Origin: Cristatella mucedo
Taxonomy: Eukaryota > Bryozoa > Phylactolaemata > Cristatellidae
Direction: 5' to 3'
Assembly (NCBI GenBank): GCA_009760855.2
Contig: WPIO01000027.1
Span: 2,782,501 to 2,846,500, forward strand
DNA length: 64,000 bases
Part shown: one piece after another, positions 41,139-51,726 of the stretch
Numbering within the stretch: the first letter of the stretch is position 1
Layout: every line of letters begins with the position of its first letter
Translations under genes and position numbers: made by a program
Notes under the pieces: model-generated
What the model was told of the DNA's origin: nothing
Databases searched by the model: none
What the model saw: only the letters and a program-made list of their open reading frames with translations

Positions 41139-41550
41139 CTACGAATAATACATGCTCGGTGCATCTGGGTGTACAGTCGGTGCATCCTCTGCATCCTCTT
41201 CATTTCGTCGCTCACTCATGCTACAAAAAAAAGCGTCAATCCAACAACTGCTGGGCGAAAGCTATGCCCGCCATCGGGCAATTGTCATTGGAATCTAGAG
41301 AGCTTCAACTTTAACTGCACGCCTATGTGTGGGCGCATGCAAAAGTGGCAAGCATTGCTTACCCGCTTCCAAGGTAGTTACGAAACATGGAAGCTGCTAG
41401 CCGGGCATAGTAGCAAGGCGCCGGTATCGAGACGCTCCTCGAGCACCTGGTGACTCCATAGCACAGACAGTTGGACAGCTGCTCCCAGACGTTCAAATCG
41501 AATCGACTGTCGTCGTGCATCACCGTGTATTGTGTCGGTCGGGCTGTCCC
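41139..41550 (-). CDS. AGO: Argonaute exons 13-14: C-terminal PIWI, catalytic His replaced by Arg
   Basis: Exon 13 (41363-41550) reads [20 protein letters not shown], then [20 protein letters not shown]. The family's YYAHL (catalytic His, AGO2 His807) is YYARL, as in human AGO1. The guide-contacting Arg (AGO2 Arg792) is kept in TRCSRS. Exon 14 (41139-41220), after a TTTTTTTTGTAG acceptor, is short and acidic and ends [14 protein letters not shown]. The usual basic segment before the C-terminus is much shorter. Confidence 0.93.
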
Positions 41551-50500: not shown

Positions 50501-51726
50501 ATTGTGAATATATAATACATTTATGTGTATGCATGCCTTCGGTTAGTGCCGCATATTTGCTCATTCAAAATCTCACATTAGCACAAAATCTTCCCAATCT
50601 ACCGACACACAGAAAAAAATCAAGCTTACACTTAACCCTCATATCTATCTCAAACATGGCCTTATCACGAATCATCAATCCGGGCATTTTACTTACGGTC
50701 TCTGTTTAACAAAGGCAATGGGTTCCACGTTGTTGAAACCAACTCTTGGTAAAGTCCGGGCCACAGCTCTCGACCGCTGCCCAGGTCGTGAGGACTAACA
50801 AAAAATACAGATCGGCCAATTGAAATGCCGTTGGCTGATGCAAGGTGACGTAAAATTGCGTCCAATGCAGGGTTGGCTTCGGATGAAATCATTTTCTCTC
50901 TTCTTTCGCCTGCTCCCACACTTGTAAAGTTTATTTCTGCCACCATCTTGACGAGAATCTGATAAGTTTCAACTCGTTGCTTTACGCACCAACTTAAAGT
51001 TTTCTCTTCATTCTACAATGGAAATATGCTTCAGACAGCTAGGCACCAACACCTTCAGAAGACTGGTTAGTTGAAGAGGCCACTTAGACGGCTACGTGAA
51101 TCACGGATAATCTATCTTCTGAACGTCGATGCAAGTACAACTATATTGAATAATAAATTATATAGCCTTCTAGAATAATATTTTCAGTTTAAGACAAATG
51201 CTGACTGCTAAAGAGCGTTGCACAACCAAGGAAATAAAAGCGAATCTTCCTTCGAACTTCTAGCTAAAGAGACGACTGAAGCACGTAGGGCTGTGAAACG
51301 AGAACAAGGCAGTTTTATGCGTGCATGCAGTTTGAAAGCATTGAAAATCCAACCAAATATAGCGAATCTCGGAATGCCACCAATCCTTACCAATTTGTCG
51401 AGATCATGGAAAGGTGTGAGGCTGTATATGTTGCTCATCCCATCGTAGATGACGAACGGGAGAAATTGAGCATTATGCTTCATCCAAACATTGACAATGG
51501 CCCTGAAAAAGAAGATTTTTCCGAAGATACTATTTTGTTCGTGCATATGGTGGCTTGAAAAAAGAGCTAACTCTTACCGGTACATATTGGATCCAATAGG
51601 AGCGGGCGAAACTTTGATGCTGTAATGATACACTTTGTCGAGAAACCCGTCTCTGCTGCGAATTACTTTAAAAAAGTTAGCATAGAGCTTGACATAATCA
51701 GGTCTGCTTTTAGAATCTTCTTCCAT
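41139..51726 (-). CDS. AGO: Argonaute (AGO clade), catalytic residues lost, 14 exons
   Basis: Minus-strand exons: 51578-51726, 51391-51502, 50697-51012, 49227-49449, 48693-48912, 46431-46457 (least sure), 46265-46393, 46027-46148, 45685-45869, 45279-45532, 43529-43721, 42460-42699, 41363-41550, 41139-41220. All junctions are GT-AG and phases agree except inside exon 11. The sum is about 812 residues (human AGO2 has 859), with N, L1, PAZ, L2, MID and PIWI in order and a C-terminus SMYYS like the family's TMYFA. Argonautes bind small RNAs and silence complementary transcripts. The MID 5'-phosphate pocket is kept (Tyr494, Lys498, Gln510, Lys531, Lys535), but the PIWI tetrad is Val563, Glu603, Tyr634, Arg773 in place of Asp-Glu-Asp-His, so slicing is not expected. 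Exon 11 is 193 nt between phase-0 introns, i.e. one base out of frame: a pseudogenising mutation or a sequence error. The start is the ATG at 51726 (GCAATGG context); an acceptor-like site just upstream (51739) leaves room for a further 5' exon. Confidence 0.93.
42460..42699 (-). CDS. AGO: Argonaute exon 12: PIWI domain
   Basis: 240 nt, phase 0 both ends. Reads [51 protein letters not shown] and [11 protein letters not shown]. This matches [46 protein letters not shown] and FYLCSHAGIQ. Confidence 0.95.
42749..42936. repeat. (GA)n then (GAGACA)n microsatellite in Argonaute intron 11
   Basis: About 130 bp of GA units followed by eight GAGACA units. It lies about 50 bp upstream (in gene sense) of the exon 12 acceptor, giving a TC-rich tract on the transcribed strand. 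Confidence 0.97.
43529..43721 (-). CDS. AGO: Argonaute exon 11: PIWI core, second catalytic Asp lost, one-base frame error
   Basis: After a CTTTTCCAG acceptor the first half reads [20 protein letters not shown] and [13 protein letters not shown] in phase 0. From about 43624 the homologous frame is shifted: [20 protein letters not shown], then [10 protein letters not shown]. Glu603 aligns with the catalytic Glu (AGO2 Glu637). The RDG motif with the second catalytic Asp is RYE. The exon is 193 nt although both flanking introns are in phase 0. Confidence 0.92.
44140..44190 (-). mobile_element. L2 LINE tail scrap in Argonaute intron 10
   Basis: CAGCGCCCTAATCGATACAA followed by ATCTCTTTCTAGGC is the family terminus. 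Confidence 0.5.
45279..45532 (-). CDS. AGO: Argonaute exon 10: MID/PIWI boundary, first catalytic Asp lost
   Basis: 254 nt. Reads [60 protein letters not shown] and SIAA. The family motif [20 protein letters not shown] has become [19 protein letters not shown] without a change in length, so the first catalytic Asp is Val (residue 563). The guide-phosphate residues in the first half are intact. Confidence 0.95.
45685..46393 (-). CDS. AGO: Argonaute exons 7-9: linker L2 and MID domain
   Basis: Exon 7 (46265-46393): [19 protein letters not shown] and [19 protein letters not shown]. Exon 8 (46027-46148): [16 protein letters not shown] and [13 protein letters not shown]. Exon 9 (45685-45869): [20 protein letters not shown] and [18 protein letters not shown]. 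Each aligns with AGO2 (SYNLDPYIQEFGIKV, VTGRVLPAP, QGVWDMRGKQF, KVWAIACFAPQ, LRKISKDAGMPIQ, LQLIVVILPGKTPVYA). Introns are short (116, 157 and 152 bp) with clear pyrimidine tracts. Confidence 0.95.
46431..46457 (-). CDS. AGO: Argonaute exon 6, 27-nt candidate microexon
   Basis: Reads VEFLADMMQ between an ACATAG acceptor and a CAA|GTGGTGACC donor, phase 0 on both sides. The pseudogene copy (about 30860) preserves AEMMQ with a conservative Asp/Glu change, supporting a coding role. The family normally has about ten more residues here (APDRQEEISRL), so another small exon may be missed or this linker may be short. Confidence 0.45.
47045..47830 (-). mobile_element. Old L2/CR1-clade LINE fragment in Argonaute intron 6
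   Basis: Minus-strand reading contains [17 protein letters not shown] and [10 protein letters not shown] upstream, [20 protein letters not shown] in the middle, and PLAYLFELV near 47190, the order of L2 RT C-terminal blocks. Heavily decayed. Same orientation as the host gene. Confidence 0.7.
48693..49449 (-). CDS. AGO: Argonaute exons 4-5: PAZ domain
   Basis: Exon 4 (49227-49449) reads [20 protein letters not shown] and [11 protein letters not shown], then [15 protein letters not shown]. Exon 5 (48693-48912) reads [38 protein letters not shown] and [19 protein letters not shown]. Across the junction the spacing from the PAS motif to the EQYF/AQYF motif equals that of human AGO2. PAZ binds the 3' end of the guide; the aromatic HTYLPLEVC core is conserved. 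The intron between them is 314 bp. Confidence 0.93.
49655..49735 (+). mobile_element. L2 LINE 3' tail in Argonaute intron 3
   Basis: AATGTAAAGCACCTAGAAAG, then GGCGCTTTATAAAGTAATTA and (ATT)n. Antisense to the gene. Confidence 0.8.
49850..50270 (-). mobile_element. Decayed L2 LINE fragment in Argonaute intron 3
   Basis: The minus strand reads [20 protein letters not shown], resembling LAPAYLSDLLP...TTRFSE, with surrounding remnants of the same region. Confidence 0.45.
50697..51012 (-). CDS. AGO: Argonaute exon 3: end of N domain and linker L1
   Basis: 316 nt. Reads [20 protein letters not shown], then [25 protein letters not shown] and [20 protein letters not shown]. This is the ArgoL1 signature (ALDVVLRHLPS...PVGRSFF...GGGREVWFGFHQSVRPAMW). 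Donor GACC|GTAAGTAAA. Confidence 0.92.
51391..51726 (-). CDS. AGO: Argonaute exons 1-2: N domain
   Basis: Exon 1 (51578-51726) reads [20 protein letters not shown] and [12 protein letters not shown], matching the family's LLANYFEV...VYHYEVDIKP. It ends TACCG|GTAAGAG. Exon 2 (51391-51502), after the acceptor CTTCTTTTTCAG, reads [20 protein letters not shown] and [18 protein letters not shown], matching NREIVEHMVQHF...VFDGRKNLYTAMPLPI. It ends at a GTAAGGATTG donor. Confidence 0.88.

Follow-up and report, generated by a model that had tools for sequence, protein, structure and literature searches.

The window analyzed here, a stretch of 64,000 nucleotides (C199:2782501-2846500), comes from a genome assembly of 572 Mb in 688 contigs, which we searched as a whole. 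On its minus strand (51726-41139) it carries an Argonaute gene in which the D-E-D-H tetrad of slicing Argonautes reads V-E-Y-R and the reading frame is broken in exon 11. This gene belongs to a family with several copies in the assembly. The explanation that best fits our data, and that we consider likely, is that a microRNA-type Argonaute (miAGO) was duplicated, gave rise to a slicer-null form that was once under selection, and is now disabled.

A Frameshifted Argonaute Gene

Spliced alignment resolves the gene into 14 exons, with GT-AG boundaries at 13/13 introns (Table 1). When the exon 11 lesion is bridged, the gene reads through as a protein of 819 residues without a single stop. Six Argonaute Pfam models match this read-through (ArgoN, L1, PAZ, L2, MID, and Piwi), five above the curated cut-off and L1 one bit short of it (21.0 vs. 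22 bits), and human AGO2 chains from the PDB align to residues 11-790. The N, L1, PAZ, MID, and PIWI domains named in an earlier sequence-only reading of this stretch are thereby recovered. For comparison we used the AGO1-like gene of the host itself (on C676), which retains D-E-D-H and whose 14 homologous exons are free of frameshifts and stops (its N-terminal extension lies outside the comparison). Exon 1 has 149 nt in the window copy and 154 nt in the homologous AGO1-like exon. Read along the minus strand, an (AG)n-type simple repeat (42752-42936) in intron 11 precedes exon 12 by about 50 nt; a second one was seen elsewhere in the window, at 22456-22637.

Exon 11 is 193 nt long in the window copy vs. 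195 nt in both the AGO1-like gene and copy a, one of two near-complete sisters (a and b, described below). In the aligned DNA of the three copies, the window copy lacks two nucleotides after 43610 that both sisters have. The frame that enters from exon 10, and that contains V570, carries E610 and then ends at a stop (43535-43533). The frame containing Y641 (in the motif FYRY) has two stops upstream inside exon 11, and the third frame has two stops too. The Glu and Tyr motifs thus never fall in the same frame of exon 11, and the four tetrad residues cannot occur in one protein encoded by this assembly. Rescue by alternative splicing was also considered, and reading the three frames rules it out for any exon 11 product that holds both motifs.

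There is thus no open frame across all exons: the assembled gene encodes about 648 residues, ending within PIWI, and about 430 nt separate the premature stop from the last exon junction downstream. A stop so far ahead of the last junction usually leads to nonsense-mediated mRNA decay. The window copy is a pseudogene as assembled, and the description of it as full-length has to be given up, since translation halts in exon 11. The fourteen splice-consistent exons proposed earlier hold as to their number and splice sites, but exon 11 breaks the frame.

Loss of the Catalytic Tetrad

Aligned to human AGO2, the read-through has V570, E610, Y641, and R780 at the DEDH positions, spaced at 40, 71, and 210 residues from the first; the D-E-D-H/D tetrad of slicers is therefore absent. 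These are the residues and spacings that the sequence-only reading had given, with the numbers moved by seven (its Val563 is our V570, and so on), and the alignment keeps Val and Tyr where an Asp at the first and third positions had been looked for. The spacing of 71, as against 72 in AGO2, is a trace of the 2-nt lesion. An Argonaute with this set of residues would be predicted not to slice.

The first and third substitutions lie in the motifs GAV and YRY, which were found in all three near-complete copies; YRY is also present in a fragment on C299. Both Asp were therefore lost before the copies split. The fourth position has diverged among them, with Arg in the window copy against Gln in both sisters.

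Disabled Sister Copies and Segmental Duplication

The two near-complete sisters lie on one contig (C657), about 235 kb apart and in opposite orientation. Copy a is interrupted by four premature stops, in exons 1, 2, 5, and 8, and it also shows a 12-nt gap (exon 10) and a 2-nt insertion (exon 13); in copy b, exons 1-2 are unrecognizable and exons 11 and 13 each contain a 2-nt insertion. The window itself holds a truncated copy of the same family (Table 1), within which positions 29230-30092 are 92.6% identical in DNA to positions 45414-46279. Smaller pieces of the family were detected at C657:851.5 kb and C299:2578.1 kb. The best conserved parts between copies include exons 5 and 6, which encode PAZ and the beginning of L2. 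A block of the window that includes the gene matches C657:824902-844949; the gene therefore moved in a segmental duplication.

Our genome searches for copies scored the best candidates only (51 and 7 matches), which makes the copy count a lower bound, and among the copies that they found none is intact. Every copy found in the assembly is disabled; the damage is slightest in the window copy, which has a single 2-nt deletion. This state agrees with the alternative of a decaying paralogue raised in the sequence-only reading, as the window copy is frameshifted and both near-complete sisters have stops, frameshifts, or lost exons. By extension, all copies may be dead in the living species as well.

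Probable Origin From a MicroRNA-Type Argonaute

Gene structure bears on the origin of the family. Intron phases agree between the window gene and the AGO1-like gene at 13/13 introns, and 10 of the 13 intron positions coincide exactly in the alignment; the remaining three adjoin gaps. This match supports a DNA-based duplicate of a microRNA-type Argonaute, at 37% identity between the window read-through and host AGO1. The putative parent is 87% identical to AGO1 of the bivalve Ylistrum, and in our tree it groups with the lophotrochozoans at 100/99 support, outside the 11 sampled bivalves and gastropods. A mite or tick as host, considered at first, was dropped on this ground. Two further Argonaute genes (on C133 and C550) are PIWI-type by distance and about 26% identical to AGO1. 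A search with PF02170 returned nine matches, which fall in AGO1, the three copies, both PIWI-type genes, and a locus on C497. This last piece of PAZ (C497:1919942-1920088) lies outside the known Argonaute genes and is perhaps a Dicer exon.

A whole-length protein search gave 640 matches at E <= 0.001 among 7995 candidates, with a best identity of 39% among the 120 listed. No close orthologue appeared among those 120 or in a search with residues 85-270 (two matches among 719 candidates); both searches need shared 5-residue words, and distant orthologues could escape them. The two matches to residues 85-270 (P0241 and P0242, from ENA contigs) are divergent Argonautes with a full DEDH, about 46% identical to miAGO and 66% to each other.

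In a tree that includes PIWI rows, the family falls among lophotrochozoan miAGOs (SH-aLRT 80) on a branch of length 7.55. An approximately unbiased (AU) test does not reject holding it with trochozoan miAGOs (p = 0.49). The trees contain neither named rows of the small interfering RNA (siRNA) class of Argonautes (siAGO) nor WAGO rows. On the basis of gene structure, we regard a DNA duplicate of the host AGO1-like, microRNA-type gene as the most likely origin of the family.

The alternative that the family stems from an old siAGO appears unlikely. It gains some appeal from the accessible part of a survey of 43 lophotrochozoan species (PMC11114477), where the siRNA class is described as absent in molluscs, annelids, brachiopods, and phoronids, which have microRNA-type and PIWI Argonautes only, and as retained in some lophotrochozoan phyla; its statement on absence cannot strictly be carried over to the host animal. 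An unrooted tree without PIWI also attaches the family outside the lophotrochozoan rows, with low support and on a branch of about 8. Against this stand the intron phases and exact positions shared with the AGO1-like gene (siAGO introns lie outside the comparison), the AU result, and the placement in the PIWI-rooted tree.

The sequence-only reading had likened the gene to nematode WAGOs. This holds as an analogy at most, for the gene has the intron pattern of host AGO1, and a duplicate within the AGO clade is most likely. Searches for an RNA-dependent RNA polymerase (RdRP; PF05183) and for a Dicer-dimer domain both gave no match in this genome, and none in the controls either (14 genomes in the case of PF05183), so both results are uninformative.

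Probable Past Selection on the Slicer-Null Form

Comparisons between the copies point to constraint after the loss of the catalytic residues. NG86 omega is 0.405 between the window copy and copy a over all exons (bootstrap 0.28-0.60), 0.457 between the window copy and copy b over exons 3-14 (0.32-0.64), and 0.309 between a and b over the same exons (0.22-0.48). A codon model rejects omega = 1 for exons 3-14 (p = 1.9e-4) and for exons 3-11 (p = 1.5e-4); in it, stops were masked and omega = 1 was maximized over a grid of eight kappa values. The codon test provides the rejection, and the direction (omega <1) is taken from the NG86 values. In polarized substitution counts, which compare exons 3-11 with introns 3-10, the replacement rate relative to the intron rate is 0.56 in the window lineage (p = 0.0024), 0.44 in that of copy a (p = 0.00035), and 0.61 when pooled (p = 6.8e-6).

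A longer view comes from simulation. Twenty neutral simulations that started from the window codons accumulated 10-20 stops by the time they had drifted to 62% identity, whereas the window read-through, 37% identical to host AGO1, is free of stops. Most of the divergence of the family was therefore probably accumulated while it still coded for a protein. As the loss of the tetrad predates the split of the copies and omega lies below 1 afterwards, the slicer-null form was probably maintained for a while. Together, these patterns suggest that it was kept by selection for part of the time, that selection was weakest or already gone in the window lineage, and that decay followed. The term slicer-dead Argonaute used in the sequence-only reading may thus suit the past of the family, with its shared GAV and YRY and its later omega; it does not suit the present copy, which is frameshifted.

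It could be argued that the window copy is still a working slicer-null Argonaute and that the missing 2 nt reflect an assembly error or a minor allele. The deletion adjoins a run of T and is the sole lesion seen in 819 otherwise stop-free codons with intact splice sites, and replacements in this lineage run well below the intron rate. We nevertheless find this doubtful. Two nucleotides are missing, whereas homopolymer slips typically affect one base. The AGO1-like gene in the same assembly is free of indels over its 14 homologous exons, and both sisters carry other lesions, including stops created by base changes, which are rare as read errors.

Plain neutral decay, in which the tetrad was lost during pseudogenization and the protein was never functional without it, is less probable still. 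It would account for the fact that all copies found are broken, and in the window lineage the ratio of replacement to silent changes is 0.75, not significantly below 1 (p = 0.44). This account is already disfavored by two results: GAV and YRY are older than the split of the copies, yet omega in the following period is 0.31-0.46 and omega = 1 is rejected, and the frame stayed free of stops to a degree of divergence far past simulated drift. Finally, we consider it very improbable that the truncated product of about 648 residues, with N, PAZ, MID, and the beginning of PIWI, has a function of its own, such as competing for guides or partners: exons 5 and 6 are indeed well conserved between copies, but its stop would normally bring about nonsense-mediated decay, and exons 12-14 past the lesion are undamaged, so that the lesion looks recent.

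Retained Residues and Proposed Past Function

We compared functional residues in the alignment of AGO2 with the window read-through, using AGO2 numbering; this numbering and the roles of the pocket, PAZ, and tryptophan-pocket residues are those we take to be established. The pocket for the 5'-phosphate of the guide is kept at Y529, K533, Q545, C546, K566, K570, R792, and Y804, and changed at R812, which is M. In PAZ, F294, Y311, H316, and L339 are kept. Near the tryptophan pockets, the surface for partners of the GW182 type, F587, P590, F653, Y654, K660, P661, E695, and Y698 are kept, whereas V591 is replaced by I and F659 by L. These residues are consistent with a family that bound small RNAs and had a function other than slicing.

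We therefore propose the following history as a working model. A microRNA-type Argonaute of a lophotrochozoan animal would have been duplicated at the DNA level, introns included. The duplicate may then have diverged to about 37% identity with its parent, exchanging D for V, D for Y, and H for R or Q, while its 5'-phosphate pocket stayed almost complete and most of the GW182-type surface residues examined were retained. Its past role was most likely that of a guide-binding, non-cutting Argonaute, which might have occupied targets, recruited partners, or held small RNAs. The slicer-null gene would have been multiplied by segmental duplication and kept under purifying selection for part of the time, before a later decay that left all copies found in the assembly disabled. 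In a variant of this model, a second non-slicing Argonaute derived from miAGO is still kept as a guide-binding regulator, with at least one functional copy in the species and with the window deletion being an allele or an error of assembly; we think this improbable.

Several observations weigh against the proposed history. In PAZ, R277 is replaced by F, Y279 by R, and R315 by Q, and H634 is replaced by K; these changes may have altered guide binding. The consulted part of a flatworm study (PMC8191739) cautions, with regard to other Argonautes, that a missing triad is by itself no proof of lost cutting. For copy b, the replacement rate is 0.80 of the intron rate, which is not significant (p = 0.23), and the ratio of replacement to silent changes given above means that the window copy may have been drifting already. 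In a and b, silent sites change faster than introns (pooled 1.47), and contrasts with silent sites are inflated as a result. Intron 12 and exons 13 and 14 show 100% identity between copies a and b, as compared with 93.5% over their introns overall, a sign of gene conversion or recent exchange. Last, the trees are saturated on the branch of the family and do not settle its origin, and the unrooted one places it, with low support, outside the lophotrochozoan rows.

Comparison With Known Argonautes

Like other metazoan miAGOs, the family has the canonical domain order, the 13 intron phases of the host gene, and the 5'-phosphate pocket, and it is 35-39% identical to them, mostly near whole length, among the matches listed. 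It differs in its lack of D-E-D-H, a shorter C-terminal tail, a long branch, and the broken frame. Both vertebrates and nematodes have paralogues that lack the tetrad. Human AGO1 and AGO4 have altered tetrads and reduced or lost catalysis, and AGO1 keeps both Asp. The window family resembles them in being a duplicate of a slicing AGO and in the Arg at the fourth position, but both Asp and the His are gone from it, and its divergence is much greater. Nematode WAGOs are a clade of their own, have expanded in a lineage-specific manner, lack the tetrad, and act with RdRP-made RNAs; the family shares with them its lineage-specific expansion and missing tetrad, and differs from them in having the gene structure of the host AGO1-like gene.

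Among invertebrates, the part of a genome survey of mites available to us (PMC7659050) reports that Ago2d of Varroa destructor and Ago3 of several species lack the DDH residues. These paralogues are comparable in their lost catalytic residues, but belong to another phylum and were described as genes rather than as a group of decayed copies. In molluscs, miAgo duplications are described in oysters, octopods, and some snails and clams (PMC12479628, main text in part), which are likewise extra microRNA-type Argonautes in lophotrochozoans; the words catalytic and slicer are absent from its main text. Flatworms, another spiralian group with lineage-specific divergent Argonautes, have a well-conserved DDH triad in their miRNA-class Agos and one planarian PIWI-class gene with a substitution, according to the sections of PMC8191739 consulted. 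In the open-access literature, judged mostly from listings, we found no earlier report of a lophotrochozoan AGO-clade Argonaute without catalytic residues.

Catalytically altered Argonaute paralogues are thus already known, and the window family is a further, decaying case. The present work adds a lophotrochozoan AGO family that is strongly diverged, has no catalytic residues, and shows evidence of past selection, all of its found copies being broken. If the family was maintained and then lost, the Argonaute set of lophotrochozoans can turn over faster than surveys suggest, and the copies would offer a natural measure of the time over which an Argonaute that does not cut stays useful. Should a functional copy persist, an Argonaute pathway beyond those of microRNAs and piRNAs would have arisen again in a group where several phyla are thought to lack the siRNA class. 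As they stand, the broken copies are evolutionary history and not a demonstrated pathway. They also carry a warning, as a tetrad that is read across an unnoticed frameshift resembles a protein.

Feature Coordinates and Other Elements of the Window and Genome

Table 1. Argonaute gene features, related copies, and repeats in the window (positions of the window, position 1 being its first letter).
Feature	Position	Strand	Remarks
Exon 1, N domain	51578..51726	-	ATG at 51726-51724; donor GT; spliced alignment
Exon 2	51391..51502	-	GT-AG
Exon 3, N/L1	50697..51012	-	GT-AG; sister copies 86-93% identical (protein)
Exon 4, L1/PAZ	49227..49449	-	223 nt, same as AGO1-like gene
Exon 5, PAZ	48693..48912	-	220 nt, same as AGO1-like gene
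Exon 6	48554..48601	-	48 nt, same as AGO1-like gene; identical in 3/3 copies
Exon 7, L2	46265..46393	-	Spliced alignment
Exon 8, MID	46027..46148	-	Spliced alignment
Exon 9, MID	45685..45869	-	185 nt, same as AGO1-like gene
Exon 10, MID/PIWI, contains GAV	45279..45532	-	Spliced alignment
Exon 11, PIWI, frameshifted	43529..43721	-	193 nt; spliced alignment, aligned DNA, three frames read
Exon 12, PIWI	42460..42699	-	Spliced alignment
Exon 13, PIWI, YYAR	41363..41550	-	Spliced alignment
Exon 14	41139..41220	-	Normal stop TAG at 41141-41139
V570 codon GTT, first catalytic Asp position	45327..45329	-	AGO2 alignment; hand-counted from exon table, checked in DNA
E610 codon, catalytic Glu position	43650..43652	-	AGO2 alignment; hand-counted
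Y641 codon TAC, second catalytic Asp position	43556..43558	-	Out of frame with E610; AGO2 alignment; hand-counted, checked in DNA
R780 codon CGG, catalytic His position	41401..41403	-	Hand-counted, checked in DNA
Bases flanking the 2-nt deletion	43609..43610	-	Three-copy DNA alignment; gap beside a T run, placement arbitrary by about 1 base
Premature stop after the frameshift	43533..43535	-	Frame entering from exon 10
Truncated copy of the same Argonaute family	29221..30815	-	Exons 7-10 only, ends before GAV; genome search, aligned DNA, blastn
Block shared with C657:824902-844949	36305..57419		Pieces of about 85-93% identity; blastn
Copies of the interspersed repeat family	908-1858, 5812-6805, 12655-13770, 16388-16687, 19544-20677, 32705-33008, 35540-36296, 58298-59027	both	At least eight copies; blastn

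The window also contains an interspersed repeat family with at least eight copies in both orientations (Table 1). Their frames share a recurring peptide, which we take to resemble the 3' end of a reverse-transcriptase frame of a long interspersed nuclear element (LINE); a Pfam scan of four of these frames gave no match.

Elsewhere in the assembly, a contig of 21 kb (C688) is mitochondrial, with COX1 and with repeated frames between genes. One of its strands has frames that are presumably ND5, ND4, CYTB, ND6, COX3, and ATP6, and an ND2-like frame lies on the other. ARAGORN, run with the bacterial code, found no transfer RNA on this contig. Among the 120 listed matches of COX1, the best named ones are molluscs (about 82%), and nemerteans, a phoronid, annelids, and insects follow at 79-81%; a COX1 tree leaves the host unplaced. 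Given these results and the position of AGO1 outside the sampled bivalves and gastropods, the idea of a mollusc host was set aside. COX1 also matches database entry P0121, apparently the same sequence under another code.

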